Shown: positions 5,346 through 46,330 of the stretch, piece by piece
Numbering within the stretch: the first letter of the stretch is position 1
Layout of the letters: each line of letters starts with the position of its first letter
Assembly: GCF_000005505.3 (NCBI RefSeq)
Contig: NC_016134.3
Coordinates: forward strand, 11,390,624 to 11,454,623
Direction of reading: 5' to 3'
Source of the DNA: Brachypodium distachyon
Taxonomy: Eukaryota; Streptophyta; Magnoliopsida; Poales; Poaceae
DNA: 64,000 bases
Notes under the pieces: model-generated
The model's input: only the letters and a program-made list of their open reading frames with translations
Told to the model about the DNA's origin: nothing
Databases searched by the model: none
Position numbers and translations under genes: made by a program

Positions 5346-5508
5346 ACGTGTGAGTTTGAGTTTTGGCCGCTAGCTAGCTACTCCTTGCATCCATCATTTC
5401 TTTGCACGCTGCACACACAAATGCCATGCAAATGATCACACGGATGCAGTGACTTGGCTAGTTGGCAAAAAATGCGTGAGAGATTTCATCTTTCTCTCCA
5501 TATATAAG
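5346..5508 (+). promoter_or_regulatory. PHAS unit 1 promoter module and TATA box
   Basis: The conserved family-A block runs from GTGTGAGTTTGAGTTTT through a CATGCAAATGATCAC core and CTAGTTGGCA to TATATAAG (about 5501-5508). The same block recurs before most family-A units. The TATA box is 102 bp upstream of the miR2275-like site. Confidence 0.65.
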
Positions 5509-5532
5509 CTCAGAGCTAGCTTCCCACTGGTT

Positions 5533-6140
5533 GATGCATGCTCCACGGAAGAGATGAATATTTTCGAGCTAAAAACAAACAGTACTCTGGATTTTGGTCC
5601 ACTGAGACATTAGAGGAGACCAAAAGTATGTTGCAGCTTTGTTTATGAAAATTCTTTTCAGTGCCCGTTTGGCAGGAGGCACGGTGTCTCCGACATCCCT
5701 CTACCGTTCGATGGGCCGCAATGCCGCTGCGGGCCATAGATGGCGCTGTACGTGGCTGCAGAGGCCATTCATTACGGCTAGGATGAGTTTGGGCTGCATG
5801 TCAGCCGGCAGTTTGAGCATAGTCCGCTCACCTGGGCCATCCGTACGTTGGCTGGACACAAGCATCCGGACCAGATCGACTTCGCGGACCTGTGCTAGAT
5901 CATCGTTTTTCTTCTTCTTGTGCAGATAGACCTTAGAATTGTCTATGTTAATAAGTTCTGTTGGGCCAAATAACTGTTTCGAGAATGGACCTGCGCCATG
6001 TTACGCCGAAGGATGTGGGAGCCCGTTGGTTAATTCCCATATTTTGGGGTCTGATTTTCGTTCACATCCCCAGGCTTAACGAATTGATTATGTCATTCCG
6101 TTCATTTTACGAATCCCTTGACCAGATTACAGTTTTTGAC
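5533..6140 (+). ncRNA. PHAS unit 1, putative 24-nt phasiRNA precursor
   Basis: The motif at 5603-5624 (TGAGACATTAGAG then GAGACCAAA) pairs with miR2275 with about two mismatches and one G:U. Predicted cleavage is between 5614 and 5615. The start is inferred as about 32 nt after the TATA box. The end is where homology to units 3 and 6 fades, near the GAATTGATTATG tract, and is not a mapped transcript end. No long open frame is credible. Function is inferred from the known miR2275/RDR6/DCL5 pathway of grass anthers. Confidence 0.6.
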
Positions 6141-6749
6141 GAATATTGCTCTCCTCGGGTGGGCCATCATCATCATCAACATGTGATGACTAGGGTTTCT
6201 AGGGTTCGCCAGCCTTCCTCTCTTCTGAAGAACTAGATCATGGTGGTGCGTTGCTGCACCCATCAGTTTCGACAATATAATGATAAGAAGAATACAATCC
6301 ATGCATTGCCAGTTCCTACCACGCCATAACCTAATTGTGCAAAGACCATTCTTGAATTTGGCAGTATATACAATCTGATGAAAGCTATGATGGCTTGGCC
6401 AAATGTTGCATGTGTTCAAATGTTGGCTCTGAATCCAAATATATGTCAAGAAAAGAACTGTCACGATCTTGCTAGGAAAACATAGTTACATAAAGATTAG
6501 CAAAGAAGAAAAACTATCTTACAATAAGAGAAATGCTCTGCATCTGCAGTTATAACACCGTTAAAGTATGAATCTGTTTTTCTTTTGAAAAATCACACAG
6601 CTCCGGGCGTGGGCTTCCGGGGATTGATGGCTTGCTGCGGCCTGTGGGCCTCGTGTGGGTCAGTGGGCCGGAAAGCCCAGCATGGTGTCGTCCTCATGCG
6701 TAGTAGCTGTTTGTGCCTGGTGGAAGCTGGGCGGTCTGACCTGGCCGCA
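6141..6749. other. Spacer between PHAS units 1 and 2
   Basis: AT-rich sequence with a moderately GC-rich patch at 6600-6740. No gene, repeat or target site recognised. Confidence 0.4.
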
Positions 6750-6868
6750 ATTCATTTCTTTACATGCTGGACATACGAGATGCAAGCAAATGATCACAGG
6801 GATGTGATGTCTTAGCTAGGTTTGAATTAATGAACGTGTGAAGAGCTTAGCTGGGGCCTCTATATAAG
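6750..6868 (+). promoter_or_regulatory. PHAS unit 2 promoter module and TATA box
   Basis: Family-A block with a diverged GCAAATGATCACAGGGAT core, ending in CTATATAAGCT (TATA at 6861-6868). It lies exactly 100 bp upstream of the unit 2 target site. Confidence 0.65.
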
Positions 6869-6892
6869 CTTTGAACTGCACAGTGTTGCTGA

Positions 6893-7036
6893 TTCAAACT
6901 TCTAATCAAAGGGAGAGGAGACATTTTTTTGGCTAAAACTACTTCTGCATTTTTGTGTGTTGAGATATTAGAGAAGGCCAAAATCATGCTGCACCTGTCT
7001 TCATGTATTATTTGGGACTATGGATACAGAGCTGCT
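6893..7036 (+). ncRNA. PHAS unit 2, putative phasiRNA precursor interrupted by a CACTA element
   Basis: The site at 6961-6982 is TGAGATATTAGAG then AAGGCCAAA, with predicted cleavage between 6972 and 6973. Sequence after the site (TCATGTATTATTTGGG) matches other units. At 7037 a CACTA element interrupts the transcribed body, which would resume at 9274. Whether the unit still works is unknown. Confidence 0.55.
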
Positions 7037-7559
7037 CACTACGCCAGAATGGGTTACTGGCGCACGAGCTCCAGTGACGGTACAGCTGGTCCAAAAAATT
7101 CATCGTCACTGGACGTCATTGGAGGAATCCAAAACGAACACCAGTGGCGGTGAGCAACCACCGCCACTGCTAGTAGAGCACCGGTGGCGGTGAAAGCACT
7201 CGCACGACCAGCACCGCCACCGGTGCTCTAGCACCCGTGGCGGTGGTCGTTCACCGCCACTGGAGCTCTTTAGTGGTCACCGGCGCACGAGCTCTAGTGG
7301 CGGTTAAAGTGGTCCAAAAAACAAACCGCCACTGGTAAGTCGTTGGAAGAATCTGAAACGAGTACCAGTGGCGGTTAGCTTCCACCGTCGCTGATACTGA
7401 AGCACTAGTGGCGGTGCGAGCACTCATGTGGCTTTCACCACCACTGGTGCTCCTAGGACCAGTGGCCGCATCAGTTAACCGCCACTAGTGCTCCTCAAAG
7501 TTTCCCATCCCGGTTACCAGTGGTGGGCAGATTCTTTGAACCGCCACTGGTAAGTTATC

Positions 7560-7567
7560 TATAAAAG
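7560..7567 (+). promoter_or_regulatory. TATA box of the CACTA transposase transcript
   Basis: TATAAAAG follows the subterminal repeats and precedes a CT-rich leader leading to the transposase remnant at 8217. Confidence 0.5.
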
Positions 7568-10451: not shown

Positions 10452-10651
10452 TACATATGCTTGACGTGTGAGTAAGTGAGTTTGAGTTTTGACCGCTAGC
10501 TACTCCTTGCATTCATCATTTTCTTTGCAAGCTGCACACACAAATTAAAGCCATGCAAATAATCACAAGGATGCAGTGACTTGGCTAGTTGGCAAAAATG
10601 CGTGCAAGAACATATTTATATGTAGAATTCATCTTTCTCTCCATATATAAG
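10452..10651 (+). promoter_or_regulatory. PHAS unit 3 promoter module and TATA box
   Basis: Full family-A block (CCATGCAAATAATCACAAGG, CTTGGCTAGTTGGCA) ending in CCATATATAAGCTT, with TATATAAG at 10644-10651. Close to the unit 6 block at 14680-14871. Confidence 0.65.
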
Positions 10652-10675
10652 CTTAGAGCTTCCCACTGGTTATTG

Positions 10676-11480
10676 ATGCTCTCCACGGAAGAGATGAATA
10701 TTTTCGAGCTAAAAATAATACTAGTACTTTGGATTTTGGTTCACTAGAGGAGACCAAAAGTATGTTGCAGCTTTGTCCACGAAAATTCTTTACAGTGCCC
10801 TTTTGCTAAAGACGCACGCTATCTCTGGTATCCTTCGACCGATCAATTGGCCTCAATCCGATCGCCGTGGACATGTACGTCGCTGCGCTGGGTACCAGCA
10901 ATTCCGGTCAGGGACGAGTTTGGCCCATGTCATAACTGGGCCGTCGAGACCGCTCACCTGGGCCATCCGAACCTTGGCTGTACACAAGCATCATGCGTCC
11001 GGACCGTTGGCTGGACACAAGCATCCGGACCAGACTCCGCCCATGCACGGGACCTGGGATAGATCATATCGTTGTCGTCTTTTAATCTTGTCATAATTTC
11101 TGATATTTGTTCTTCTGGCACTTATCGTTCCATGTCCCATTTTACTTTGCAATTTGATAATACATGTGGCCCCTTATCCCACATGCAAGTGACACAGCGC
11201 GGGGCAGATCATCAAAGTGCAAATCGGTTTTGATCATTTACCCCATTTTACTTTACACTTTGATAATATGTCCCGTCCTCACTCACTTATATGTGGCCTC
11301 TTACCCCACATGCAAGTGAGACATGGCGGGACAAATCATCAAAGTGCAAAGCAAATCGTAACATTGCTCTCACAAAGGGTGTGGGAGCGATTTTTTTGGT
11401 CTGATTTTTGTTCACATGCTCAAGACTTAACGAATTGATTATGTTCTTCCATATGCTACTTTACCTCCATGACATTCTCA
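10676..11480 (+). ncRNA. PHAS unit 3, site damaged by a short deletion
   Basis: At 10741-10758 the motif is reduced to TCACTAGAGGAGACCAAA. The seed-pairing part (GAGACCAAA) is kept, but GAGACAT is deleted relative to unit 6, which would weaken pairing with the 3' part of miR2275. The body matches units 1 and 6 (GATCGCCGTGGACATGTACG and onward). This is probably a dying unit. Confidence 0.45.
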
Positions 11481-11749: not shown

Positions 11750-11896
11750 AAATTCTGTCAACTTCTTTGCATGCTGCAGATGCAAACTGCATGCACTTGA
11801 TCACAGGGCTGCAGAGTCTTGGGCTCTTGGCAACAGAAATTTGAAAAGTGCTTTAGCAATCAGCATGCATCTCTCGTCTATGTATCTCTATATAAG
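11750..11896 (+). promoter_or_regulatory. PHAS unit 4 promoter module and TATA box
   Basis: Subtype block with CTTTGCATGCTGCAGATGCA, a CACTTGATCACAGGGCTGCA core, and TATATAAG at 11889-11896. Shared with units 5 and 7. Confidence 0.65.
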
Positions 11897-11920
11897 AGCT
11901 TGAGATTGTTGATTCACAGT

Positions 11921-12440
11921 CCATATAGGGTTCGGGGGAGATGGATATATACCACATAACAATGTGGATTTTGAATTTTCGTTAGTATAAGCTGAGATAT
12001 TGGAGAAGACCAAAAGCATTGGACATCTGTTTTTTATATATTATTGGAGAAGCCCCCTGTGCAACAGTCAGGGTTGATTGGCAAGTGAACTTAATTCGTT
12101 GCCTAAATCTCTATATGTTATGCTAGTTTAACCATCCGAACTAGCATGGAAGGGAATTGTACAGGTAGAAAATCAACAAATTCAGAGGTGGGAAGCATCC
12201 GGATTTGCCGAGTCTATGCATGCAGTCGAATTGTACTAGCATAGGAATTGAATTGTACTATGAAAGGCATGCACTTTCAGTATGTACGGCTAATTAAGCA
12301 GTGCAATTTATTTTGCACTTTCATTTTGCTCCCCCGTCCTGTATCACTGCCGGGTGGACCTAAACCTCAATGTCAGTGACATAGAACATAGCATATTATC
12401 AAAGTACAAAATTAAAGTTGGACATAAGATTCAAATTGCC
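11921..12440 (+). ncRNA. PHAS unit 4, putative phasiRNA precursor
   Basis: The site at 11993-12014 (TGAGATATTGGAG then AAGACCAAA) differs from a perfect miR2275 complement at one mismatch and one G:U, the best match in family A subtype 2. Predicted cleavage is between 12004 and 12005. The TATA box is 104 bp upstream. The 3' end is set by homology to unit 7 and is approximate. Confidence 0.65.
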
Positions 12441-13371: not shown

Positions 13372-13512
13372 CTGTCAACTTCTTTGCATGCTGCAGATGC
13401 AAAATGCATGCACATGATCACAGGGCTGCAGGTCTTGGGCTCTTGGCTACAGAAATCTGAAAAGTGATTCAGCAATCAGCATGCATTTCTCATCTCGGTA
13501 TCTCTATATAAG
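13372..13512 (+). promoter_or_regulatory. PHAS unit 5 promoter module and TATA box
   Basis: Same subtype block as unit 4 (CATGCTGCAGATGCAAAATG, ATGATCACAGGGCTGCAG), with TATATAAG at 13505-13512. Confidence 0.65.
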
Positions 13513-13536
13513 AGCTTGAGCTTGTTGATTGACAGT

Positions 13537-13800
13537 CCATAGGGTTCGTGGGAGATGTATATAACACTTTTTTTTTGCGGGGAGATGTATATACCACATA
13601 ACAATGTGGACTTTGAATCTTTTCTTAGTAAGCTGAGATATTAGAGAAGACCAAAAGCATCTGACATCTCTGTTTATATATTATTGGAGAATGCCCCTGT
13701 GCAATAGTCAGGGTTGATTACCGTTGAATTTTCTTGCCTCAATCTTCATATTAGTAGTTTAACCATCCGAACTGGCACAAATTGTACTAGTAGCAATCGA
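13537..13800 (+). ncRNA. PHAS unit 5, putative phasiRNA precursor
   Basis: The site at 13634-13655 is TGAGATATTAGAG then AAGACCAAA, with cleavage expected between 13645 and 13646. The TATA-to-site distance is 129 bp. Removing the 30-bp micro-insertion plus duplication at 13564-13593 restores 99 bp, the family value. Confidence 0.6.
13564..13579 (-). mobile_element. Micro-retroinsertion (poly(A) stub) with 14-bp duplication
   Basis: Minus strand CGCAAAAAAAAAGTGT, flanked by direct copies of GGGAGATGTATATA (13550-13563 and 13580-13593). This is the footprint of target-primed reverse transcription that copied almost only the tail. The T-tract plus GCGGGG recurs at 16717 (other orientation) and 38480. 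Confidence 0.6.
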
Positions 13801-13859: not shown

Positions 13860-15010
13860 ACTTCACTTTTAGTCACCATCAAGTAGGAGTAATACAACCA
13901 TCCATATCCATGTAGTCCCCTTCGACAGTGATGATCAGTGTAGAATAACAGTGCAATATATCGCCAACTGCGGATGTCGTTCCTCCTCACGGATTGGCGA
14001 TGACGATTGTGCTCGGCAATAGTTAGATCGCAGGAACTGATTTTTGAAATTTAAAACAAACAAAAAAAGGTTTTCCCACTCTAAAGCAAAACATGATCAT
14101 CTACCGCTAAACATCACAAGCAATGATCCAAGATAGGAATAGAAACAATTATGAGATTCATGAGAGTGACTGCAATATTTTTGGTATTTTCGATTTACTT
14201 GAGAATCTAAAGCACTTAAACAAGCATTCATCAAAGACAGGGCAGAAGCAGATAATAAGAGATTGGGACAGAACATCTAAGTAGTAATTTTTATAACACA
14301 AGCAAACACCGAGAGATTAGGGAAATAGGAAGTTTTGGGATTCAGGAATAGAATGGGCTAAAAAAACAAGACTAGTACGAAATTAGTACAGACGATGATG
14401 CAATAACTCACACAAATCATGAACTACTACTTAGAAATCATCGCTTCACTCCATGGGTTTCCAACTCACACATCAATCAGGTACTGAAGCAACAAGCAGT
14501 AAATGAGATAAGGGAGAGGAACTAATCAGGATGAACTTAGGAGATGAAGCAGCACAAGTTGGAGAAAGGGAAGAAGTTGCAGGAGATTCTCGTGCATTCT
14601 AGCTTTGTACAAAATCCTGAGGTAATTATTATTGATTGGAGTAATAATATACAGTATTATAACTCATTATTATTAGAGTAGCGTGCATGACATTCGAGTT
14701 TTGACCGCTAGCTACTCTTTGGTGATTCATCATTTCTTTGCAAGCTGCATGCACACACACAAATGCCATGCAAACAATCACAAGGATGCAGTGACTTGGC
14801 TAGTTGGCAAAAAATGTGTGAAAGAGCATATTTATATGTAGAATTCATCTTTCTTTCTCTCTATATATAAGCTTAGAGCTTCCCACTGGTTGATGCATGC
14901 TCCACAAAGAGATGGATATTTTTTCGAGCTAAAAATAATACTCAGTACTTTGGATTTTGGTTCACTAAGACATTAGAGGAGACCAAAAGTATGTTGCAGC
15001 TTTGTCCACC
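13860..15010. repeat. Segmental duplication copy 1
   Basis: This block, including the non-coding tract 13860-14640 and PHAS unit 6, is repeated at 22405-25780 in the same order. The second copy is longer because of two nested insertions. The non-coding tract itself (CGATTGTGCTCGGCAATAG, then a purine-rich AT stretch) contains no gene I can support. Confidence 0.75.
14680..14871 (+). promoter_or_regulatory. PHAS unit 6 promoter module and TATA box
   Basis: Family-A block (GACATTCGAGTTTTGACCGC, CCATGCAAACAATCACAAGG), with TATATAAG at 14864-14871. Confidence 0.65.
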
Positions 15011-15669: not shown

Positions 15670-15795
15670 ACAGATTCTGTCAACTTCTTTGCATGCTGCA
15701 GATGCAAAATGCATGCAGATGATCACAGGGCTGCAGGTCTTGGGCTCTTGGCAACAGAAAGTGATTCGGAAATCAGCATGCGTCTCTCATCTCTG
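15670..15795 (+). promoter_or_regulatory. PHAS unit 7 promoter module, TATA box deleted
   Basis: The block matches units 4 and 5 up to CTCTGTATCTCTAT, then jumps to TGATTCACAGTCC. About 18 bp containing the TATA box are missing. Confidence 0.6.
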
Positions 15796-15814
15796 TATCT
15801 CTATTGATTCACAG

Positions 15815-16400
15815 TCCATAGGGTTCGGGGGAGATGGATATATACAACATAACAATGTGGATTTTGAATTTTTCGTTTGTATAAGCTGAGATATTGGAGA
15901 AGACCAAAAGCATCTGACATCTCTGTTTATATATTATTTGAGAAGGCCCCTGTTCAACACTGAAGTTTGATTGAAAGTTGAGTTTTGTTGCCTCAATCTT
16001 CATATGTTATACTAGTTCAACCATCCGAACTAGCGGAATTGTACTAATAGCAGTCGAATTGTACTAGTATAGAAAAAAGGAGGGTGTGTATCAGTAGAAT
16101 AAGGCTAGGAATCGAATTGTACTAGGAAGAAGGTGTGCACTTCCAGTATGTACGGCTAATCAACCATTTTACTTTGCACTTTATATTAACAAAGATGTCC
16201 CATCCTGTATTCCTGTATAACTGCCGGTGGACCTAATTAAACCTCACATTTCAGTGACATAGCAGAACTTATCATATTATCAAAGTACAAAAGTAAAGTT
16301 GGACATAATATTAAAATTGCCACAGTTTATGGTGTTAGCCGTCAGTTATTATTGTTTCGCCAAACCATTCAAGTATAGGCCACACTATCACTGTCTAATG
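15815..16400 (+). ncRNA. PHAS unit 7, site intact but TATA lost
   Basis: The site at 15887-15908 is identical to unit 4 (TGAGATATTGGAG then AAGACCAAA). Because the TATA box is deleted, transcription may be lost or shifted. The body matches unit 4. The 3' end is approximate. Confidence 0.5.
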
Positions 16401-16799: not shown

Positions 16800-17000
16800 T
16801 GGATAATGTTTTGGCTAAACAATAGTATGGATTTTGTTTCATTGAGACATTAGAGAAGAGACCAAAAGCTTGTTGCATTTCTGTTCATAATATATCATTT
16901 GGGTACAGCGATCGAGAGAAAAGATATATTGACGAGTGATTTACTGGTACATCGATGAGGTGCACGAAGTCGAATGTAAAAGAAGTGGCAGGATTAAAAC
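16800..17000 (+). ncRNA. Degenerate PHAS unit 8
   Basis: 16843-16866 reads TGAGACATTAGAGAAGAGAC then CAAA, a target-like motif carrying a 2-base insertion, followed by the family tract GTTGCATTTCTGTTCATAAT. No TATA box or promoter block is visible upstream, where the collapsed Stowaway and the micro-insertion lie. Probably non-functional. Confidence 0.35.
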
Positions 17001-17467: not shown

Positions 17468-17663
17468 GCATGCATGACATTTTAGTTTTGACTGTCAGAT
17501 ATATGCTCACAGTTGACTCATCATTTCTTTGCAAGCTGCACACACAAATGTACGCAAATGATCACAAGGACTTATAGCTTCCGCAAGAAACGTGTGAAAG
17601 AGCGTAGATATAGAAACGTGTGAAAGAACGTAGATATAGAATTCATCTCCATCTCTATATAAG
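17468..17663 (+). promoter_or_regulatory. PHAS unit 9 promoter module and TATA box
   Basis: Family-A block (GCAAGCTGCACACACAAATG, GCAAATGATCACAAGGA) with a short internal repeat GAAACGTGTGAAAGA. TATATAAG is at 17656-17663. Confidence 0.65.
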
Positions 17664-17687
17664 CTTATGGCTTCCCCACTTGCTGAT

Positions 17688-18260
17688 GCATATGCTCCAC
17701 CGAAGAGATGAATATTTTTCAGCTAAAAGAATATTACCTTGTATTTTGGTTCACTAAGATATTTGAGGAAACCAAAAATACGTTGTAGCTTTGTTCATAT
17801 GTTATTTGGGAATATTTCTTTTCGGACAGACAGATTCATTAGAAAGTCATTTTTGGAGCATTTGGCCGCAGCGACTACATTTTTGATAGTGTTCAACCAT
17901 CTCTCTAGATATGCAGAGGACTGTTCGACTTTCCCCGGGCCAAAAGAAAGACCTATGCCAACTCTAGTGACTTGATTAAATCATTGAGATAACTCTGATT
18001 GTCTTGTATATATTTATTGTAACATTTGCCTTTATTATAATATAATATATATTGCAGTTGATGGATCATTTATTTACTATCTTTTCCTTAAAAAAGTCAT
18101 TTATGTTCTTTAAAACATGATTTTCCCTGTATTGGTAGTTCAATTGATTCATCGTCTAGTTGATCTTGCCGTGCCGATTCTCGTCAAGTTCGCAGATAGC
18201 ACAAGTTGTAGCAGTGGATAAAAAAAAGTCTAAGAGTTCACTAATATAATTGAGACGTGT
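17688..18260 (+). ncRNA. PHAS unit 9, putative phasiRNA precursor
   Basis: The site at 17755-17776 is TAAGATATTTGAG then GAAACCAAA, 99 bp after the TATA box, with a perfect seed-pairing half. Predicted cleavage is between 17766 and 17767. The downstream tract is shared with units 12 and 13 and runs toward the 3' end of the dirigent pseudogene. Confidence 0.65.
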
Positions 18261-18499: not shown

Positions 18500-18731
18500 A
18501 CGTACCACCTCACATTCTACTGAATATACTCCAATATCAACATATGAATTACAGAAACTTTATTCTTGGCCCTTGGATTATGCCAACATAATTTCAGAAA
18601 ACTAACATTGCCACATGTACAAATCGTGGATACAGTATGTAGTATGTAAATCCACTTATTGCAGAGCCAGGAATGTCAAGCAAGGCCGTCGGCCCTTCCA
18701 AACAGAGATCAACAGAGCAAACAAGAGCTCC

Positions 18732-19167
18732 TCACGGGTTAACGAAGACGTCGAGCTCAAGCACAGCATTAGGGTGATCAAGCCTTACAGTCTTCTACAA
18801 CACATACCCTCTGGCCATCCTGAACTGTCCCGTGCCACCGACCATGGCCAGCTCCCTTACCGCGGCACCGATGTCGTCCCGGCCAACCACGGTGACCGAC
18901 GAGCCCGCGTAGGAGCCCGAGGTGAGCACGAGCCCGCGTAGACGCCCGAGGTTGCCCCTCGACGCCCAGATGTACTGCCCCATGCACCGCTGTGAGAACG
19001 TCGTCGATGACGATCGTGTCGCTGAAGTGGCCCTTGGACCCGTTCAGCACTTGTACTGCTGTTGGGGATGGGCCGATTAGTACGTCGTGCATGTAGAAGT
19101 GAAGGCGTGCCGATGCCACCGCCGGGTGCGCCTCCAGGGCCAGGGCGAGGAACAGAGCGAGCAGCAT
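18732..19167 (-). pseudogene. Dirigent-like pseudogene
   Basis: Close paralogue of the intact gene at 26495-26977. The ATG at 19167 starts MLLALFLALALEAHP (signal peptide), then LHFYMHDVL and VQVLNGSKGHF. About 34 bases are deleted after DVLTA, shifting the frame near 18985. A second frame resumes with GQYIWASRGN, SSVTVVGRDDIGAA and VGGTGQFRMARGYVL. The tryptophan codon after GYVL is a TAG stop (18795-18797). The last residues (LDHPNAVLELDVFVNP) are still recognisable up to 18732. Not expected to make a functional protein. Confidence 0.85.
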
Positions 19168-19819: not shown

Positions 19820-20483
19820 GCATCCATGACATTAATTGTTTTTATTGGCAATTAATTTCTTTGCAAGATGCACCCACGAAATGCATGCAGATCATAGGTA
19901 GAAATGCCTTAGCTAGTTGGCACTAAGGGTGTGTTTGGTTTGAGCCACAACTAGCCCCACCAATTTTTTGGCAAATTTTGGTATGACCAAATCAAGGGCA
20001 TGACCAAATTTTTGGTCACTAGATGTTAATTGGATTGCAGCCATTGAAAGGCTAATTTTTTGACAAACTTTTTAGACATAAATTTTGTTTGCAACCAACT
20101 TGATACTCAAACCGTTACTGGCTTGATATTTGCTCTGATTGAATGCACATGAGGCTTACCGTTTAACAGGAGAGAACTGTATTAACCATAAAGAAAAGGA
20201 AACAGGCTTGGGCCCACCGTGATTAGAGGGCCAGCGCCACGACCACTTTTTTGGCGGAGCTTTTCTTCGCCCTGAGCTCGCCACGGATTTTGCTGGGAAA
20301 GCACGGGCATGGCCGAGACTGGGTTGGCGAGCCAAATTTTCGGTCCCTATGCAAACAACCGTCAAATATCGTGGGCTAACCAATCTTTTGGTATGGTTGG
20401 ATTTGGTTGTAAACTAAACAGACCCTAAATGTGTGAAAGAGCTTAGTATATATACATCATGCATGCATCTCTCCATCTATAAG
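19820..20483 (+). promoter_or_regulatory. PHAS unit 10 promoter module split by a Tourist-like MITE
   Basis: The block's left half (TTTCTTTGCAAGATGCACCC, ATGCATGCAGATCATAGG, CTAGTTGGCAC) ends at 19923. Its right half (ATGTGTGAAAGAGCTTAG) resumes at 20429. A weakened TATA (CTATAAG, about 20477-20483) lies 85-92 bp before the site. Confidence 0.55.
19927..20425. mobile_element. Tourist/PIF-Harbinger-like MITE
   Basis: The left end is GGGTGTGTTTGGTTT. The right end read inward is GGGTCTGTTTAGTTT. The 3-bp duplications are TAA (19924-19926 and 20426-20428). The 499-bp insert splits the unit 10 promoter. Short open frames inside are not supported as genes. Confidence 0.75.
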
Positions 20484-20507
20484 CTTGGAGCTGCAGAGTG
20501 GTTGCTT

Positions 20508-20780
20508 CACACTCCAAAGAAGAAATGATTATTTTCTATTCAGAAATATTTTTGTATCTTGAATCAGTGAGATATTAGAGAAGACCAAAGGTTTATAGTG
20601 TCTATATTGATATATTATTTGAGAGCTCCACTTTTAAGCTCTGAATATTGATTAACAAGTCATATATGTTCCAACGATGTATTTTGTATTGATAGACCAA
20701 TGGTGCAGTAGTTGACTCCTAATGTACCCACCATCATCGAGTTTGCACGTACAGCAACTTTGCTGGATTAAATACCAAAG
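20508..20780 (+). ncRNA. PHAS unit 10, putative phasiRNA precursor
   Basis: The site at 20568-20589 is TGAGATATTAGAG then AAGACCAAA, identical to unit 5. Predicted cleavage is between 20579 and 20580. The promoter is interrupted by a MITE, so expression is uncertain. Confidence 0.55.
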
Positions 20781-20804: not shown

Positions 20805-20968
20805 CATTTGAGTTCTGACTGATAGCTACTGTTTTTGTTGGCAATTCATTCCTTTGCACGCTAGTCGCAAGAAATGCTTGCAGATCATGAGGGGAATATT
20901 TAGCTAGTTGGCAATAGATGGGTGAAGAGCTTGCTTAGTATACACATATCTTTCCATATCTCTATAAG
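20805..20968 (+). promoter_or_regulatory. PHAS unit 11 promoter module
   Basis: Diverged family-A block (TTTGAGTTCTGACTGATAGC, GCAGATCATGAGG, TAGCTAGTTGGCA), with CTATAAG at 20962-20968 in place of TATATAAG. Confidence 0.5.
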
Positions 20969-20992
20969 CTTCGAGCTGCCCAGTGATTGATT

Positions 20993-21280
20993 CACACTCC
21001 AAACAATAGATTACATTTTTTCGGCTAAGAAATACCTGTGGATTTTGGTTCATATTAGAGTGGACCAAAAATATTGCGTTGTGTGCATCTTGTATATTTT
21101 TTGAGAGCTCCATTTTGTTATCCCACTCTGTTCAGTGACAAGTAATATACTCACTCCAAGTCCATAAGCGTCTCAGGTGCAGTACAATTTTATACTAACT
21201 TTGAACTAAATCTGAAACACATATTATGAATCGGAGGGTGTAGCTTATAAGATGCATAGTATACTGATAGACCAATAGGT
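20993..21280 (+). ncRNA. Degenerate PHAS unit 11
   Basis: 21048-21069 reads GTTCATATTAGAG then TGGACCAAA. The 5' TGAG of the motif is lost and the seed-pairing side has a changed base. Flanking tracts match unit 10. Confidence 0.4.
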
Positions 21281-21579: not shown

Positions 21580-21772
21580 CATGCGTGACATTTGAGTTTT
21601 GACCACTATCTACTACCTGTTGATTCATCATCTCCTTGCAAGCTGCACACACAAATGCATGCAGATGATCACAAGGATGCAGTGACTTAGCCAGTTGGCA
21701 AAAAAAAGTGTGAAAGAGCATATTTGTATATAGAATTCATCCCTGTCGCTATATAATCTATCTCTATATAAG
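21580..21772 (+). promoter_or_regulatory. PHAS unit 12 promoter module and TATA box
   Basis: Family-A block (GACATTTGAGTTTTGACCAC, ATGCATGCAGATGATCACAA, CAGTTGGCA), with TATATAAG at 21765-21772. Confidence 0.65.
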
Positions 21773-21796
21773 GTTAGAGCTCCCCGTGGATGCATG

Positions 21797-22404
21797 TTTG
21801 ACAGAAGCGATTTGAGTATTTTTCAGCTAAAACAGAACAGTACTTTGGATTTTTGTTCATTAAGATATTAGAGGAAACCAAAAGTATGTTGCACAGCTCT
21901 GTTCATATATTACTTGTGAACAATTCTTGACACGCAAAGGCGTTCATTGAAAAGTCGTTTATGTTCTTACAAGGCATTGTTCGTCGATAGCGTTCCCTGC
22001 CGATCAGCCTGAGTTCGCAAATAACACAAGCTGTAGCAGTGGATAGAAAATCAAAAGTTCACAAATATTTTGGGATGTGTTTGCCTCCAAGCAGTGGAGT
22101 TCACATTTTAATTTCAATTTCAGTTTGCTGGTTTACCGCTGTAAATGCTTTCCTGTGTCGCAGTTCATTTATCGAGCTAGAGTACTCTGTTTTCCGTTCT
22201 GTCGTTTTATTTTTCGTTATGCTTTTTTAATGGAGTGCGATCACAGTTTTGCGGGCGGGTGAAGAGATCAGGAATTATAGATACTTCATATTTGAGCCTT
22301 CGAGTCCAAGATAATTTCAGAAAACAAACATTATTGACACGTACACAAATCGTGGATACAGTATGTAAACCACTTATTGCAGAGCCATGAATGCCAAGCA
22401 AATC
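21797..22404 (+). ncRNA. PHAS unit 12, putative phasiRNA precursor
   Basis: The site at 21861-21882 is TAAGATATTAGAG then GAAACCAAA. It has a fully complementary seed half and about two mismatches overall, one of the strongest in the window. The TATA box is 96 bp upstream. Predicted cleavage is between 21872 and 21873. The downstream tract matches units 9 and 13 up to GCAGAGCCATGAATG, where those units meet a dirigent 3' end. Here the sequence switches to the segmental duplication instead. Confidence 0.7.
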
Positions 22405-26440: not shown

Positions 26441-26494
26441 AGAGCCAGGAATGTAAGCAAAGCAGCCCTTTCCAAACAGAGCAACAAGAAATTC

Positions 26495-26977: not shown

Positions 26978-27086
26978 GGCTAAGAGGTCTATCAGAGCCC
27001 CTGAGCTCAAGGTAGAAGAAGTAGTGTGTGATGAAGTCTGAACGATGTGTTATTTCTGCTGGCTGCGTCTGCATATGCTAATCGGG

Positions 27087-29311: not shown

Positions 29312-32038
29312 ATGTCCGGTGTAGTGAAGTTTGTTTTTTACTACGGTTCCGGTACTGTCTTAACAACTGAGCACAGAGCTGATCTGAGTCAGTTTAAGTA
29401 TGTGGAGTTGGATCTAACGGCCCCTCAAACATGGACGTTTAGTCAGTTGCAGGAATGATTGGTAGGATGTTTAGCGCTCAATCCTGAAACATACACCGTC
29501 CGTGTGCAAGCATTGTGGACCAAGTCAAATTCAAATATTTTCTAGGTTTTGAGGCCGATAGACCGGACATCAAAGTGGGTGCGCTGGTTAGAAAATTGCG
29601 AGAAAAGGGGAACTACACCTGTCGCCTTAATCCAGGTTGTCGCTCATGAGACCAATCCAGCTGAAAGCGAGGGTGAATCAAGTTATGACTTGTCCAATGC
29701 AAACTCTGTGTCGAATGCTGGAGGTGGTGGTCATGAATCAGGCTAGAGCTCCGAGGCAGTAGGAGAGGATGAGTACACTGGCGAGGCAGATGCGGACGAA
29801 GAAGATGGTCACTTGCAGAACCAGATGGAGGATGAAGATATAGATGGTCGTAGTTCTTATGACGATGAGTCTCATGAGTCGGACAAAGAGGAGGTGCCGA
29901 TTCCTGAATCATGGAATCAGGACTTCTCTTCAGCTATGACCGTGAACAATGGGCACGACTCTGCATGGCAATATCATCAGAACAACATTGCGAAGGGTGC
30001 CAGATTTCCTGACAACAAACATCTGCAGGATGCAATAATTGCTTGGGCAATGTCCACGCAAAGGGTTTTCAAAACAAGAGTCTCTTCACAAAAATATGTG
30101 ACAATGGAGTGCGAACAAATAAATTGTCCCACGAGGGTGCATGGCTATGTTCCTAAGTATGACACAGATTGGGTTGTGAGTGACTAGGTGTTGCACACAT
30201 GTGTCATTCCCAATATCCCTCAAGACCATCGTAACCTCTCGTCGATGCTTCTTGCTCGGTTGCTTTACACGGAGATAGTGGAGAGCAAAACAATGGAAGT
30301 GAAGGCCATCATGCATAAGGTTAGGATAAGGTTTAAGTACAACATTTCGTATGGAAAGGCTTGGAGGGCTAAGCAGAGGGCTCTTGAGGAAAGATTTGGT
30401 TCGTTTTTCGACTCGTACGACTCTGTTGTCCGCCTCCTCCATACACTACAAGCCCTTAATCCAGGCACCTATGTCGAGATCCAACACTTCCTGCACCCAG
30501 AGTATCCAACTGTGAGGGTGCTGCATCGACTATTCTTCACTTTCGGTGTATGCGTCCAAGTTTTCAATCATTGTCGACCAGTGATATGCGTAGATGGTAC
30601 TTTTCTCACTGGCAAATACAGGGGGCAAATCTTGACCGCCATTGGTCAAGACGGCAACAATCAAATCGTTCCGCTCGCATTTGCTTTCGTGGAGGGTGAG
30701 AACATTGAAAGTTGGTTATGGTTTTTCAGGCAGGTCAAGAGAGCAGTTGTGCATAATAAGCCAAATGTGTGCATCCTTCATGACAGACATGCAGGCATTC
30801 TCAGTGCGATAAGGACACTGACAAACCCTGGGCCTGATGAACAAACTCCATGGCAGGACATGCAGAGTCGTTGGTGCATGCGGCATTTGGGGGCCAACTT
30901 CTTCTCGCAATTCAGGAACAAGTCGCTTATGAATCTATTCAAGAAACTCTGCAAACAGAACCAACAATGGAAGTACACTAGGATACGTGGTTATCTTGAT
31001 GAGTTCACGAAGAAACATGTTATGGAGAGGAGAGAGGCACGAGCCACAGCGGTAGCAGCACATGTAACAGCAGTGGCTGCACAGACAGCAGTTGGAACAG
31101 GACCAGCTGAGGAAGAACCTGTTGGGGTTTGTGACTTGCCAGGGTTTGACCCACCCGGCACTAGGAGAAGGGTTGGGAGGCAGATTAAAAACTTTCAGTA
31201 GTGGATAGAGCACGAGCCTCTGGAGCGGTGGTCTTTGCTGCACGACACACATGGCGCTAGGTACGACGTCATGACTACTAACCTGGCAGAAACATACAAC
31301 TTTGTCCTAAGGGGAAATAGGGCTTTACCACTTACAGCAATCGTCGAGGGTATTTTCCATGGCTCGGTGAAGTATTTCAAAGATAGGCGCCAGAGAGCTG
31401 AAATGCATATCATGAACAACCCAAATACACGGTACTGTGAAAAGATTATGAAGTACATGGATGAGAAGATGGAAAAAGCTAGGTCTCATACTGTCGTCGC
31501 CATCGGTAATCAAGAACACAGGTTTGAGGTGCCCTTGCCAACTGACAAGTTCGGTTGTGGAAATGAATTGAGGACACAGGAGGTGAAGATTGGAAATGAA
31601 GCGTGGCCAACGTGTGAGTGCACCTGCAACAAACCAAAGTTGCTTCACCTACCTTGCTCATATGTACTTGCTGCTTGCGGGCAGCTAGGGATGGACGCAA
31701 TCTCATTTGTGTCTCCCTATTACCTGAAAGAGTCTGTGCTTAGCACATGGACGGATGAGATGCTAGGGTTTCGTGCAATGGGCAATTTCAATAAGGTAAC
31801 CCCTAGTGAAAGGCGGTACATCCCTGACCCCGGGCTACTGTGGACAGGCACAGGCAGACGCCCGTCCAGGCGCATCCGAAATGATATGGATGAATCTGAA
31901 ACCGAAGGACCTTCACGACAATGTTTTCTATGCAACCATTTTGGCCATAAGGACACTTATTGTCCAACTTTCGGTACTAGCGGAGCTACTGCCCGTGGAA
32001 GAGGGAGACGTGGACGACGAGGGAGAGGAAGAAACTAG
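29312..32038 (+). pseudogene. mudrA-like: mudrA-type MULE transposase, one frame with five in-frame stops
   Basis: A single frame runs 909 codons from the ATG at 29312 to the stop at 32036-32038 without a frameshift. It is broken by stops at 29456 (TGA), 29543, 29744, 30185 and 31199 (TAG). Each is one transition from a Trp or Gln codon. Domains in order: N-terminal MuDR-type region; MULE transposase domain (VICVDGTFLTGKYRGQ, VPLAFAFVEGEN, LHDRHAGILSAI, CMRHLGANF, TTNLAETYNFVLRG); SWIM-like finger (CTCNKPKLLHLPC with SY where SH is usual); and a CX2CX4HX4C zinc knuckle (CFLCNHFGHKDTYC) before an Arg/Gly-rich tail. The acidic catalytic residues look retained. Related copies could in principle mobilise this element in trans. 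Confidence 0.9.
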
Positions 32039-32049
32039 ACTATGGCCTT

Positions 32050-32395
32050 AATATGTACTATGTGTTAATTTGTACTGTATGTTTTAATTTGTACTCTATG
32101 TGGAACTATGTTATAATTTGTACTCTATGTGGAACTGTGTTTTAATTTGTACTATATGTGAAACTATGTGTTAATTTGTACTCTATTTTTTAATTTGTAC
32201 TCTATGTGGAACTAAGTTTTAATTTGTACTCTATGTGAAACTATGTGTTAATTTGTGTCCTATGTTTTAATTTGTATTCTATGTGGAACTATGTGTTAAT
32301 TTGTACTCTTTGTTCAACTATGTTTTAATATGTACTCTCAGTTTAACTATGCTTAACTTTGTATTGTATGTCTAACTATGTTTATAAATGTTGCA
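32050..32395 (+). repeat. Tandem repeat between transposase and plant mobile domain gene
   Basis: About twelve degenerate copies of TTAATTTGTACTCTATGTGG followed by AACTATGT. It lies in the presumed 3' UTR/intergenic region. Confidence 0.75.
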
Positions 32396-32403
32396 GGTAC
32401 AAA

Positions 32404-35110
32404 ATGGAGAGAGTATCATTGCTATCTCCGGAAATTAAGAGTAAGCATTGGGCTGCTCGATTGGTGGCGCATCCTGGGAGTGTCGAGCTTCTTGTCACGC
32501 GCACTCCTAAGGAAAATTGGATGATGCACCCTGCCTGGATTCAGCGGTATTTATTCATTCATCCCTTGCATGTTCATTTTATTTATTCAACCCTTGCATT
32601 GTCCATTTTATTTATTCATCCCTTACATGTCCATTTTATTTATGCAGTTTGAAGTGGGCTGACCTTTTACCTTTCGCACGACTTGTTGAGGCAGCTCGTG
32701 CAGAAATGGTAGAGGGCGAACGACAAGGCTTCAACTCTACACGGCCTACAAATTGACCACTCGTTGTTGAGCTGCTTAGTGGACAGATGGAGGTCCGAGA
32801 CACACACGTTTCACTTTCGCTGGGGAGAGATGGCTCATACTCTCCAGGATGTGTCGATGTTGCTGGGACTACCATTGGTGGGTGATCCCATAGGACCGTT
32901 GCAGGCACCAGCTGATTGGCAGGAGGGTATGGCACTACGTTTTCAAGCTGGGCCACTCACCTCGAAGGCTCACAGACCTAAGCTAGATTGGTTGCTCAAT
33001 TACCAGGTTAGATCGATGTGTTTTAAGTTAATATATCTAAGAGCGTACCTCTTATACTTGCATGGGTTTACTAACACTTGGTTTTTGTTGCATGCAGATT
33101 CAGAAGTTTGGGTATCCAGAGACCCAAATGACTGAGCCTCAGATCACTCGGAGCCTTGAGGCATATATAATGTGGCTTCTCGGGAAGGTGATGTTCACCG
33201 AGAACCATGTCACCACCATTAGCACGCACTACATCCCTATTGTAGTGGAGATCGCGAATGCAACTTGTGGTGACGACATCACACAGAGGAGTTGGGGTTC
33301 GGCTGTCTTAGTGGCTACGTACCGAGGTATGTGCAACGCTTGCCAGCTTGCGTCGCCCAAATCAGCCCTGCTTGGATGTCCTTTATTGTTGCAGCTGTGG
33401 TCATGGGAGAGGTTTTCTATCAGCCGACCAGACGTTACGGGTGATCACCCTAACCCTGAACAGGAGTTGTTTGACTTAGAACACATCGACCTGCCTACTT
33501 TCGCGACAATTTAGACACGTAACAAGGTATGTCGAATGTAAAATTTATACATTAGTTTACATAAACCATGAATGAAGCTAATTTCTTTTTTTTACAGAGA
33601 AGCTTTGCACACGATCAGGTCAGGAATTGCTACCCATCATTCAACGAGCAGTTCGACGTGTTGCACTCTGAGGCGGTTGTCTGGGAGCCGTACACACAGG
33701 ACGCCATCGATCTTAGATATCCTGGCGGGATGTCCATGGTCTGCACGAGAGATTACGCTTACTGGATGACAAAATCAAAGATCATCTTCGACGTCTGCGT
33801 GGAGGAGATGGCCCAGCAGAGGGTCATGAGGCAGTTTGGGGCACGCCAGTTGGTCGTTCCTCCACCGACGGAGGATCCACTTCCACCGATCGTTCACAGG
33901 TATGTACAGTTCTACAATTTATGATTGTCGTCCAGAATTGTCCATAATTTAATTGTTCAACACACAATGCGATCTCAGGTTACCAGGAAGGGAAGTACCA
34001 AGACCCGGACTCAGTGGCTGCAGAGGGTTCTGACGTACGTCACAGAGTGGGAGACTGCGACGACATGGGTTTGGCCATTGGAGGCCTTTGATCTCGATCT
34101 ATTCAACGGCTATTTGCAGAGGTACATGACAGCTACCCGATTGAGCATCATTCAACACTCTCACCCCCAGGAGATAGCCGAGCCGAGTTTGCAAGATATG
34201 TACCCTAGCCAGTCTACTTCAGGCTCTAGACAGCACGTGGTAAATATTTTCTCTTAACATAATGCATGTGTTTGTTACGTACTTTGCCATATATATGTAA
34301 TGCTCTTTGTGCCAATTGCAGGCTCAGTTGACACAGGATTTATAGGGTGAGTTCGCTGCGTATGGACGTTCGCTTTCGACCGGTCCACTTCTATTACCAC
34401 GGGAGCCGCACCAGTCCTGGCTAAGACGAATGGAGGAGAAGCTACGCTCTGTTTACGCGGCTATCACGTGCACCCGCACTTCGGACGTCGTTCCCCACCA
34501 GGCATCCTTACGGCCCCCGCGTCCCTCCACGCACCAGCGGCGGCCACGTCAGCAGGAACCACCGCACCTCCGACACTACCCGTGTCCACGTCTACCAGAG
34601 CAGTCGACGCCCAGGCCACCACCTCCTAAGCAGACTGGAGGTTCATCGTGGCACCAGCCGCAGTCTTCTTTCGACTATTGGCAGCAGCAGCAGCCCACTT
34701 TTCAGGCTGGAGGTTTGGTGTGGCAGCACCAGCAGAGTCCCATGATGAACTTTGAGTTTCATCCACAGACCCAGCCACAGGGTATGTATATTTCTATCTA
34801 TTGTGTTCATTACCATGAATGCTACACAATTCTAATGCTAAGTACTTTCCCACATGCAGGAGCCTACGGGCATCAGTCGTTGTTGTCCGAACCCTCGTGG
34901 GGTAGTGAGCAGGATCACGCTCAAGGAGAGGACTATTCTGTCCAACACGGCTGGATGTTTAATACTCCGCCACCAGACCCCACACAGGAGGATACACAGT
35001 ATCGCGAGGATGGGTCCGTGATTCCTCCGCGCAAGGTTGTGCGACCTCATAGCTATGGCTGGACCACGCCACAGGCACCCCCGGAACGCCGTCCCAGACG
35101 CCGTGCCTGA
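32404..35110 (+). pseudogene. MAIN-like plant mobile domain (aminotransferase-like) gene in the MULE
   Basis: The ATG at 32404 opens MERVSLLSPEIKSKHWAARL. Likely exons are 32404-32546, 32648-33006, 33098-33526, 33598-33899, 33979-34239, 34322-34781 and 34860-35110, all with GT-AG borders. The plant mobile domain is clear (LSCLVDRWRSETHTFHFRWG, EMAHTLQDVSMLLGLPLVG, then RWRS-type and LLGKVMF stretches). The C-terminus is Pro/Gln-rich. Defects: a frameshift near 32730, TAG at 33511-33513, TAG near 34343 and a probable one-base loss at the exon 5 acceptor. This domain is known both in host MAIN genes and on grass MULEs. The role in transposition is unknown. Confidence 0.8.
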
Positions 35111-37972: not shown

Positions 37973-37994
37973 ATGTAATTTAGAGTAAACCAAC
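37973..37994 (+). other. Very degenerate miR2275-like site
   Basis: ATGTAATTTAGAG then TAAACCAAC, followed by AATAATTCTT...CAGGTTTGTGAG, a tract also seen after the unit 14 site. A TATATACA lies about 116 bp upstream. Probably a relic. Confidence 0.25.
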
Positions 37995-38638: not shown

Positions 38639-38800
38639 AGAAGAGAAATTCTAATGTCATATTTGAGATGTTGAAGGAAACCGAAGCAAATACTATCTCT
38701 TGATACATGTGTTTTGTGTTACACAGGAAATGCTTGAGATTCCATTTTGCATTTATCCGTTGCACAGGAAATCGCAAATTCTCACATATACAATTAGTTC
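38639..38800 (+). ncRNA. PHAS unit 15 (family B), weak
   Basis: 38664-38685 reads TGAGATGTTGAAG then GAAACCGAA, with mismatches at three positions. TATATAAT at 38607-38614 is only 57 bp upstream, shorter than in sister units. The leader TCTCACAAGGAACTTTCAC matches units 16 and 17. Confidence 0.4.
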
Positions 38801-39572: not shown

Positions 39573-39800
39573 CCTACCAAAGGGAGAAGATGAAACCCCG
39601 CAACAAAAGCTATATTAGTGTATTTGAGATATTGGGGCAAATCAAACTAAATGCTCTATGGTTCTGCATGCATATTTCAATAAACTAGGAATACTCTCGG
39701 CTTATATATAGCAAGATCCTTTGTTAACAGCTTTAGCTTTGTAAAATTATAAATGCAAGATCTTTTATCAGTGGGTTTGGCTTTGTAAAATTATGCAGCA
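39573..39800 (+). ncRNA. PHAS unit 16 (family B), putative phasiRNA precursor
   Basis: The site at 39625-39646 is TGAGATATTGGGG then CAAATCAAA. The 3' half of the miRNA pairs well and the seed half has mismatches. Predicted cleavage is between 39636 and 39637. The end is approximate. Confidence 0.45.
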
Positions 39801-40886: not shown

Positions 40887-41140
40887 TCTTGCCAAAAGAA
40901 GCAGATGAATCAACACAAGCAAAACTATGTTCGTGCATTTTAGATATTGGAGCAAATCAAACTAAGTGCTCTATGGTTCTACATGTATGTTTCAATAAAC
41001 TACAAATGTCTCAGGTCTCGGATTACATAGTGCAAGATCCTTTGTCAACAGCTTCAGCTTTGTAAAATTAGAAGTGCAAAGTCATCTGTCAATGGCTTTG
41101 CCTTTGTAAAACCAGCAAAATGGTACAGTTCTAGTCGGCC
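40887..41140 (+). ncRNA. PHAS unit 17 (family B), putative phasiRNA precursor
   Basis: The site at 40940-40961 is TTAGATATTGGAG then CAAATCAAA. Predicted cleavage is between 40951 and 40952. The body repeats a CTTTGTAAAA-containing tract, also duplicated at 41100-41230. Confidence 0.45.
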
Positions 41141-44012: not shown

Positions 44013-44194
44013 GGCCGCCGTGTCCCCTGTTCTCTCCTCTCCCCTGAACCGAGGAAGAAAGGATTCGTAGTACCCTATCCATTCCGGGGTTTTGCCGTCA
44101 AGATTCGTGCGCCTTGAGATTCGTGTATAGGGTCAAAAGGAGATCATGCATTCTAACTGATTTTTATAGATGAACAATTATTTCTGAAGCTTGA

Positions 44195-44318
44195 CTGAGC
44201 TCATGCAAATGAAGCACCAGAGCCACCTTATAAGCATGGCATTCCAACCTACCATGTCAAGCCATCATGCATTCCATGAACTTCGTTTATGGAAAAAGAA
44301 TTTGACGGCATATAAGTA
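44195..44318 (+). promoter_or_regulatory. PHAS unit 18 upstream region and TATA box
   Basis: CTCATGCAAATGAAGCACC resembles the family-A core. TATAAG at about 44311 lies 100 bp before the site, as in family A. Confidence 0.5.
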
Positions 44319-44342
44319 TAACTAAGCTCTTATAGAACTACA

Positions 44343-44600
44343 CTGAGAGTCCCAACGCATCTCCCAAAACACATTATATCTAACCAGATGATTAAATCTT
44401 TCTGATCGCTTGAGATATTAGAGGGAACCAAACCTTGACATCCTCTAGGAATATGTTAGTGTGATGTTTTGTTAAGTTGCGGGCAAATATTCTTCATCTT
44501 GGCGATGGATGGCGGTGATCCAGGAGGTTCATGACCGCGTCAATTGCGATGAATTTGCTTCGACATCAAGGTCCTTCTGAAGGTGAATGGATTTGAAAGG
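44343..44600 (+). ncRNA. PHAS unit 18, putative phasiRNA precursor
   Basis: The site at 44411-44432 is TGAGATATTAGAG then GGAACCAAA, with one mismatch and one G:U against miR2275, among the best in the window. Predicted cleavage is between 44422 and 44423. The flanking sequence is otherwise unlike families A and B. The end is arbitrary. Confidence 0.6.
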
Positions 44601-46090
44601 GGTTTTGTAGCATTCTGTTCCATAGGAATTTTTCCTACGGAGGCTCTCTTGGTTCAAAAGAATGGATCCTTCAAAATTTCTATGGATTTCTTTTCTACAC
44701 CCTAATAATATAGGAATTCTAACAGGAGTTTACATCTCTTGCAACAAAAATTACTGCAACATTAATGTTTTGTTCCAATAATTAAGTTGCAGTATTTTAA
44801 TAGGAAGTTTTAGCTTTGTGGTAATAGTGGTTGCATATTGCCATGATTTTACTATGTTGCCTTAGTGACAAAAACTTCGTTGCAATTGATAAATTAATTA
44901 TTGCAACAAAATGTATATTCATGGCAATATCGAAATTTATTGCCATGATTTTACTATGTTGGTTTAGCTATTTTTTTGTTCCAATAGAGACCAGATACCG
45001 CAACAACAAAAAATAAGTTGTCGCATTAACTATCTCATATTGAAACTAGTTTGAGTGCTGCGTCACGAAGACGGATAGAGCTTATGACTTCTATTATTCT
45101 GTACGACACAATATCATAGCATCCATCCATCGCTGCAGGTTTAATATGACGCAGCCGTTGATAATTAAGGTGTCCTACCAAAATCGGATGCAAAGTACCA
45201 TTGTGAATGAGAGACCAGGAAGATTTATTGAGCTAATTATCATTTGGTAACTCCTCGGTTTGCTGGATCATGGCAAAATGTTTAGTTGTTGCATTGATCT
45301 AAGCCAATTCAGATTCCTCACTGTATTTTACTCGTAGAAACTATAAGGGGAAAAAAACGAATATTACTTTTGGGCTTTTTAGCCCACGCCAGCCAACTAT
45401 CCCACCTAGCGCACTTTGCCATTCCGGCTTTCTTCTGGCGGGCCAGTTGTCCTTCCTTTTTTTTTCCTCGTGGGTCGTATCTCTCTGCTTTGGCCCATTA
45501 GTCCGACAGGCCTGCCCGAGGGTCCTCACAAATCCATGAGCATTAGGGATGGAGAAATCCATGGACATACTATCTCGAAGCTAGACTCGAAAGAAAAAAA
45601 TTCAGCTACCTACGGAAAAGATACAGTTTGTTGTTTCAATTTCGGCAAATAAAATTTCGCTTCCGTTTTCAGAACTTCCTTTCCGTTTACATATTTCCTC
45701 CCCATTCTCGTTTTTCTGAGGAACAGACGGGAAGATTTATTTATGGTTCAGCAAATATCATTCAAAGCAGGTTCAGACAACATAGGTATTTGAACTTTCT
45801 ATCTGAATCTATATATCTTGTGAATGTATGGCATAACAGAGTGTAAGCAATAACAGAGTATAAGCCGTAGTAACACGGTAACAGAGTGTACACTCCCTCA
45901 GAAATCATCAAGTCCCTGTGATTCTCAATGACAGCGTTTTAAGATTTGGATTGCTCATAGCAGCATCCAGTAATCACATCACATATAGGAGCAGAACCTT
46001 CATGTGCATGTGGTGATTAGGGAACCGACGAGGCTTCACGTGTATGTGGTGAGATGCTTGATCAGTTACAGGTAATTCTTCTTCGCGAAT
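44601..46090. other. Spacer, no gene
   Basis: AT-rich with a repeated TTGCCATGATTTTACTATGT (about 44837 and 44940) and a TTGCAACA-rich stretch at 44740-45020. A GGCCCATTAG-containing patch is at 45490. No coding sequence supported. Confidence 0.35.
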
Positions 46091-46095
46091 GCCAG

Positions 46096-46102
46096 TATAT
46101 AG
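46096..46102 (+). promoter_or_regulatory. PHAS unit 19 TATA box
   Basis: AGTATATAGATCC. TATATAG lies 105 bp upstream of the target-like site. Confidence 0.45.
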
Positions 46103-46127
46103 ATCCACCACAGCGACAGGGAGCTCT

Positions 46128-46330
46128 CTAGAAGTGGCACAAGATGAACATGATTTCCTCGTCAAAAGCGAGAGGCAAGATTTCTGCTCCTTTTTTTGAT
46201 TGAGATATTAGAGAAAAACAAAGCATATGTTGATGTGATCACTTGTTACTCTTTCTATGGATTGTTCTGGTCATAAATGTGGAAACCCCAACATCATTGA
46301 TACAAGTGGTGCTAACTGTTTTTTGTTCAC
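46128..46330 (+). ncRNA. PHAS unit 19, putative phasiRNA precursor
   Basis: The site at 46201-46222 is TGAGATATTAGAG then AAAAACAAA. The AAAACAAA end fits the miR2275 isoform that starts UUUGUUUU rather than UUUGGUUU. Predicted cleavage is between 46212 and 46213. The end is arbitrary. Confidence 0.5.

Follow-up and report, generated by a model that had tools for sequence, protein, structure and literature searches.

An array of miR2275 target sites on Brachypodium distachyon chromosome 4, very probably part of a supercluster of 24-nt phasiRNA loci

The question raised by this stretch of the B. distachyon genome is why one 22-mer recurs about twenty times within it. The window, by which we mean the whole 64,000-nucleotide (nt) stretch analysed, covers positions 11390624-11454623 of contig C5 (48,594,894 bp; chromosome 4), and the genome searched comprises 271,293,937 bp. 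A prediction made from the letters alone (the original prediction) had described near-copies of TGAGATATTRGAG-RARACCAAA and read them as target sites of the microRNA miR2275 in a cluster of PHAS loci, the sources of 24-nt phased small interfering RNAs (phasiRNAs). In grasses, according to passages of two papers, miR2275 cleaves a precursor, RDR6 makes it double-stranded and DCL5 dices 24-nt phasiRNAs from it in anthers (PMC5825165, PMC4053937). The presence of a miR2275-type site array in the window is confirmed. Its interpretation as a miR2275-triggered 24-nt PHAS cluster is supported by pairing with the genome's own miR2275, by promoter-like blocks and by published region-level loci, and we put the probability that this stretch belongs to a 24-nt PHAS supercluster on chromosome 4 at about 95%.

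The motif is the reverse complement of miR2275. The described sequence is present at all 20 places, exactly where it had been located except for the site given as 10741, whose best alignment begins at 10737. Pairing was scored with 1 for a mismatch and 0.5 for G:U, unweighted, and a place was regarded as a target at a score of 5 or less, as in a passage of degradome work on B. distachyon (PMC4053937). One query set held five miR2275 sequences from a table in PMC6852985; the other held two mature miR2275 sequences of the genome itself, from two of the five hairpins over the Rfam cut-off, with mature ends deduced by reference to the published bdi-miR2275a. With the five published sequences, the plus strand of the window has 17 places at 4 or less and 21 at 5 or less, the minus strand none, and 16 of the 20 listed sites score 3.5 or less. 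Column-shuffled miRNA sets (500) gave a mean of 0.18 (maximum 2) at the first threshold and 1.6 (maximum 6) at the second. The own-genome pair finds 16 sites at 3.0 or less, all on the plus strand, to which the array had been assigned, and none on the minus strand, versus a mean of 0.008 and a maximum of 2 for 500 shuffled sets; such chance figures overstate independence, because 13 units form one family and the 20 sites are not independent events. Four unlisted places, 14504 (4.0) and 7112, 13165 and 25287 (5.0 each), may be chance matches, because shuffled sets give similar numbers at those scores. A first, seed-weighted scoring with four miR2275 variants (cut 5.5) had given 17 sites in the window, compared with at most 1 in 200 dinucleotide shuffles of the window and at most 4 with 1000 shuffled miRNA sets. 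The 13-mer alone, with three mismatches, is in moderate excess (59 versus a mean of 34.6 and a maximum of 55 in 100 shuffles). Five sites had been called decayed. This holds for 10737 (5.0), 16843 (6.0), 21048 (7.5) and 37973 (8.5), all scored with the published sequences; the fifth, 38664, is a good site (2.5 with the published set, 2.0 with the own-genome pair) and brings the good sites to 16. None of the 20 is overlapped by a stop-to-stop frame of 150 amino acids or more, the only frames examined, in agreement with the claim that no credible coding frame covers them.

Could the units be 21-nt PHAS loci triggered by miR2118, or an array of MIR2275 genes? Loci of the former kind also cluster in grasses, and a passage on TarDB lists 12 of them at chr4 9-12 Mb (PMC8120726); the best miR2118 site in the window, however, scores only 8.0 (seed-weighted). 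The search of the window at the Rfam gathering cut-off found no MIR2275, and the 22-mers lie on the target strand. Neither possibility is supported by the site scoring and the Rfam search of the window, and we give them next to no credence. The five MIR2275 hairpins over the Rfam cut-off are all on another contig (C4), and one of them holds the published bdi-miR2275a letter for letter. They stand in small groups at 12.534, 13.93-13.96 and 14.26 Mb of C4; near 12.534 Mb there is a third hairpin just under the cut-off (58.5 versus 60.5).

An alignment of 13 units, lying between 5603 and 25729, treats them as one family (family 1); the stretch they share is up to ~320 nt long. A profile of the upstream block was built from 12 of them (16843 left out), with the site excluded. 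In the window it finds its 12 source units again and one half copy, all on the plus strand, and no further full copy. The family-1 features are given below by position in the window; site scores, here and in the second list, are those with the two own-genome sequences, except for decayed sites, which were scored with the five published sequences.

5394-5575, plus strand: promoter-like block of unit 5603 (nhmmer 3.6e-50; TATATAAGCT at -102 from the site)
5603-5624, plus strand: miR2275 site, score 1.5, predicted cut 5614/5615; TGAGACATT fully pairs with AAUGUCUCA of bdi-miR2275a
6752-6940, plus strand: promoter-like block of unit 6961 (nhmmer 8.7e-33; TATA-like match at -100)
6961-6982, plus strand: miR2275 site, score 3.0
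10516-10716, plus strand: promoter-like block of unit 10737 (nhmmer 2.3e-52; TATA-like match at -93)
10737-10758, plus strand: decayed (truncated) miR2275 site, score 5.0, also placed by the family alignment
11758-11963, plus strand: promoter-like block of unit 11993 (nhmmer 6.2e-42; TATA-like match at -104)
11993-12014, plus strand: miR2275 site, score 1.5, predicted cut 12004/12005
13375-13605, plus strand: promoter-like block of unit 13634 (nhmmer 2.3e-37; TATA-like match at -129)
13634-13655, plus strand: miR2275 site, score 2.5
14730-14936, plus strand: promoter-like block of unit 14966 (nhmmer 5.4e-54)
14966-14987, plus strand: miR2275 site, score 2.5
15680-15856, plus strand: promoter-like block of unit 15887 (nhmmer 2.8e-31; no TATA-like match near -100)
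15887-15908, plus strand: miR2275 site, score 1.5
16843-16866, plus strand: decayed miR2275 site with a 2-nt insertion, score 6.0; kinship to family 1 mainly close to the site
17521-17729, plus strand: promoter-like block of unit 17755 (nhmmer 1.1e-38; TATA-like match at -99)
17755-17776, plus strand: miR2275 site, score 2.0
19855-19931, plus strand: half promoter-like block (nhmmer 4.9e-11); no place at 5 or less nearby and no site found downstream
20340-20547, plus strand: promoter-like block of unit 20568 (nhmmer 8.6e-33; TATA-like match at -121/-119)
20568-20589, plus strand: miR2275 site, score 2.5
20846-21031, plus strand: promoter-like block of unit 21048 (nhmmer 9.8e-39; no TATA-like match)
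21048-21069, plus strand: decayed miR2275 site, score 7.5
21628-21833, plus strand: promoter-like block of unit 21861 (nhmmer 2.7e-48; TATA-like match at -96 among others)
21861-21882, plus strand: miR2275 site, score 2.0, predicted cut 21872/21873
25501-25697, plus strand: promoter-like block of unit 25729 (nhmmer 5.1e-48; no TATA-like match)
25729-25750, plus strand: miR2275 site, score 3.0

The 12 full promoter-like copies are followed by ten good sites and two decayed ones (10737 and 21048). The distal part of the 20568 block overlaps the end of a dispersed repeat (repeat copies for 20300-20437). Nine of the 13 units have a TATA-like match at -93 to -129, an interval in which 15887, 16843, 21048 and 25729 have none. 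Mean column identity in the 13-unit alignment is 0.50, rising to 0.80 in the site columns; the best 22-column window (0.82) lies two columns off the site. The next-best conserved blocks are one upstream (0.72), an AU-rich one after the site (0.70) and a second one upstream (0.66), and beyond about +60 identity drops to 0.16-0.45. Read from the alignment, this is the pattern expected when promoter and trigger site are kept and the body drifts freely, and family 1 has the look of short non-coding RNA polymerase II (Pol II) genes whose site comes soon after a TATA-like box. The same alignment bears on whether the units are relics, that is, a tandemly duplicated PHAS family, mostly silent, whose sites are kept by recent common descent only. 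Such an origin would fit the decayed sites and the likeness of family-1 pairs (~68-89% in longer matches across promoter and site), but conservation is clearly higher at the site than around it, and a passage of PMC8120726 reports 51 miR2275-triggered loci for the 3-Mb region. We consider it very unlikely.

The other listed sites lie downstream of family 1.

27877-27898, plus strand: miR2275 site, score 2.0, forming a separate family with 37973
37973-37994, plus strand: decayed miR2275 site, score 8.5
38664-38685, plus strand: miR2275 site, score 2.0
39625-39646, plus strand: miR2275 site, score 2.0, family 2 with 40940
40940-40961, plus strand: miR2275 site, score 2.5, family 2 with 39625
44411-44432, plus strand: miR2275 site, score 1.5, predicted cut 44422/44423
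46201-46222, plus strand: miR2275 site, score 3.0 with the two own-genome sequences, 1.0 with ata-miR2275a-3p

Units 27877 and 37973 are similar from +7 to +91, and 38664 has a short upstream similarity to 40940. The profile search did not find the family-1 upstream block at 46201, and the genome search found no second copy of the 44411 flanks, except for a dispersed repeat downstream. This repeat, at 44584-44755 just 3' of the unit, has 25 further genome matches. Families without the family-1 block thus bear the same 22-mer, and its recurrence next to dissimilar flanks speaks for function rather than descent alone; very old common descent of these sites may also be considered.

It is in the genome searches that a transposon, or another dispersed repeat incidentally bearing a miR2275-like 22-mer, should show itself. 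The stretch of up to ~320 nt shared by the 13 units and a neighbourhood rich in transposon genes would suit such an origin. The DNA searches detect close copies only, and the search with the 14966 block found 7 of the 12 known window blocks. Its eight genome matches comprise those seven in the cluster and a 57-bp match on C3, with no miR2275 site in the 3 kb around the latter. The confinement of the block's close copies to the cluster, save for the 57-bp match, points to local duplication and speaks against a transposon. Unit 13634, used as query, matches this cluster only, one of the matches being a unit 14 kb ahead of the window, and family 2 occupies just two places in the genome. All window copies have one orientation, the extent of homology varies between pairs, and families with other flanks carry the 22-mer as well. 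An origin from a miniature inverted-repeat transposable element (MITE) or other transposon is therefore unsupported by searches with family-1 and family-2 sequences, within their reach of close copies, and we regard it as extremely unlikely.

The array is larger than the interval 5346-46330 first proposed for it, with sites extending past the window on both sides. A scan of 174 kb in pieces, taking in the window with 30 kb ahead of it and 80 kb beyond it, gives 36 sites at 4.0 or less over 158 kb. The 29 plus-strand sites run from 11,376,705 to 11,507,990 (2 before, 16 in and 11 after the window) and the seven minus-strand sites from 11,513,681 to 11,534,510; hence there is one strand switch. 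More minus-strand sites occur, among the matches listed, up to 11,578,887, and 4 of the 11 flanking 10-kb pieces are without sites. The shuffled controls cover the window only, and weaker sites outside it may be chance or repeat-borne. Two units before the window, with sites at 11,376,705 and 11,380,344, are matched by the family-1 profile.

Over the whole genome, a pattern derived from the window has 119 matches versus 3 for the reversed pattern, and the bdi-miR2275a pattern, allowing up to three mismatches, has 86 versus 1. Five of these 86 places are the MIR2275 genes. Among the other 81 (8 of them in the window), 71 form 18 clusters at a gap of 30 kb or less, where uniform placement gave a mean of 1.5 and a maximum of 8 (2000 runs), and 45 of 53 neighbours lie on the same strand. 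By these counts and this clustering the motif is not as frequent elsewhere. Six miR2275 sites at C4:663152-667304 alternate in strand (-+-+-+). They form three pairs, each oriented outward with ~0.3-0.6 kb between its members, and the pieces holding the first and third pair showed no inverted repeat. The arrangement looks like divergent PHAS pairs, each possibly around a shared promoter.

That a supercluster of miR2275 phasiRNA loci exists here is already known and in print. The TarDB passage counts 194 miR2275-triggered phasiRNA loci in the B. distachyon genome, 51 of them at chr4 9-12 Mb (PMC8120726). The latter are alike to the window array in species, interval and trigger; unlike the present array, they are not described there as having a common promoter block or strand layout. 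The published locus Chr4:11539101-11540181(-) encloses our site at C5:11539809-11539830(-), 85 kb past the window, and C5 is therefore chromosome 4 in the same coordinate system. For the same species and trigger, a passage of PMC4053937 gives 146 phased loci with degradome support and cleavage assigned to miR2275. Rice meiotic 24-nt PHAS loci, as far as a section of PMC5825165 describes them, carry the 22-mer miR2275 site in the 5' region, are phased from site position 13, have mostly unique or low-copy sequence and are often clustered. The units here share the 22-mer, which would probably also lie in the 5' region, and the cut predicted at site start +11/+12 agrees with the rice phase start. 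Unlike those rice loci, 13 units here are one sequence family with a common promoter-like block. A literature search limited to passages and single sections did not find the family-1 promoter block or the single strand switch described, and both are possibly undescribed so far. Little is added as discovery, because the region's miR2275 phasiRNA loci have already been published; the promoter block and the single strand switch are modest additions. The raw sequence alone suffices to recognise a PHAS supercluster, and the anatomy added to it (a family-specific promoter block, a conserved site before a diverging body, the strand order over 158 kb) is usable for studying how anther 24-nt phasiRNA genes are switched on jointly and how they multiplied.

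In our preferred reading, each unit would be a short non-coding Pol II gene. A family-1 unit would consist, in order, of the upstream promoter-like block, usually a TATA-like box ~100 nt ahead of the site, a leader tens of nucleotides long, one miR2275 site near the 5' end and a fast-diverging body. In meiotic-stage anthers the 22-nt miR2275, encoded on another contig, would guide cleavage between site positions 12 and 13; RDR6 would turn the downstream fragment double-stranded, and DCL5 would cut the double strand every 24 nt from the cleaved end.

Several points weigh against this account. The transcription start, cleavage, phasing and enzymes of each unit are what we infer, and the published phasiRNA support, in the passages cited, is at the level of the region, with one named locus matched. 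Four of the 20 listed sites are decayed, and common ancestry of the family-1 units accounts for some of the conservation at the site. Ten of the 13 family-1 units show the AU-rich block, at about +42, clearly, and it is a matter of that family only; an AU-rich motif has been published for premeiotic 24-nt PHAS loci. E-boxes are weakly enriched, with 42 CANNTG in the 300 nt upstream of the 20 sites (2.1 each, versus 1.5 per 300 nt in the window). The 15-site test for a 24-nt sequence register gave no clear signal: among 500 shifted controls, a fraction of 0.048 equalled or exceeded the observation for cycles 3-11, 0.328 for cycles 3-19 and 0.152 for cycles 3-27.

An AU-rich element at ~+42 common to the other families was considered (combined p 0.029, seven sites) and rejected, because values below 0.05 were also reached by 10 of 53 displaced windows, six of which lay below 0.029. 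A first compositional register test downstream of the cuts had been strong in cycles 1-7 (0 of 500 shifted controls reached the observed value) because the paralogues are alike in the first 60 nt; the signal faded from cycle 3 onward, and this first result was set aside. A at the first register base ranks 3, 1 and 2 of 24 in the three cycle ranges, a hint only. An aligned E-box position is common to 7 of the 13 family-1 units, with varying middle letters, and a co-located E-box in the family is suggestive only. In rice the basic helix-loop-helix (bHLH) factor EAT1 acts at E-boxes (PMC5825165, in part). It is conceivable, though we rate it as rather unlikely, that a common, locally duplicated module (TTCTTTGCAAGCTGCA and GCAAATGATCACAGGGATG blocks, TATA-like box, leader, AU-rich block at the second 24-mer) drives the cluster, with the strand switch marking two convergent arrays and the supercluster acting as one co-regulated domain.

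The window has other features as well. Just after unit 6961, at 7133-7271, two 60-nt arms that are 85% complementary and separated by 19 nt look like a small foldback element. Dirigent-gene sequence occurs inside the array at 18720-19132 and 26483-27049; the two stretches match in two ungapped blocks, at 92% and 88% identity, and a Dirigent domain is encoded by the frame at 26.5 kb. At 30188-32410 there is a Mutator-type transposase (MULE domain) whose two long frames are separated by a stop; an array of ~29-nt tandem repeats comes after it. On the minus strand at 59288-59403, between copia-type fragments, there is an Rfam match to MIR5070 (104.2 versus a gathering score of 100).

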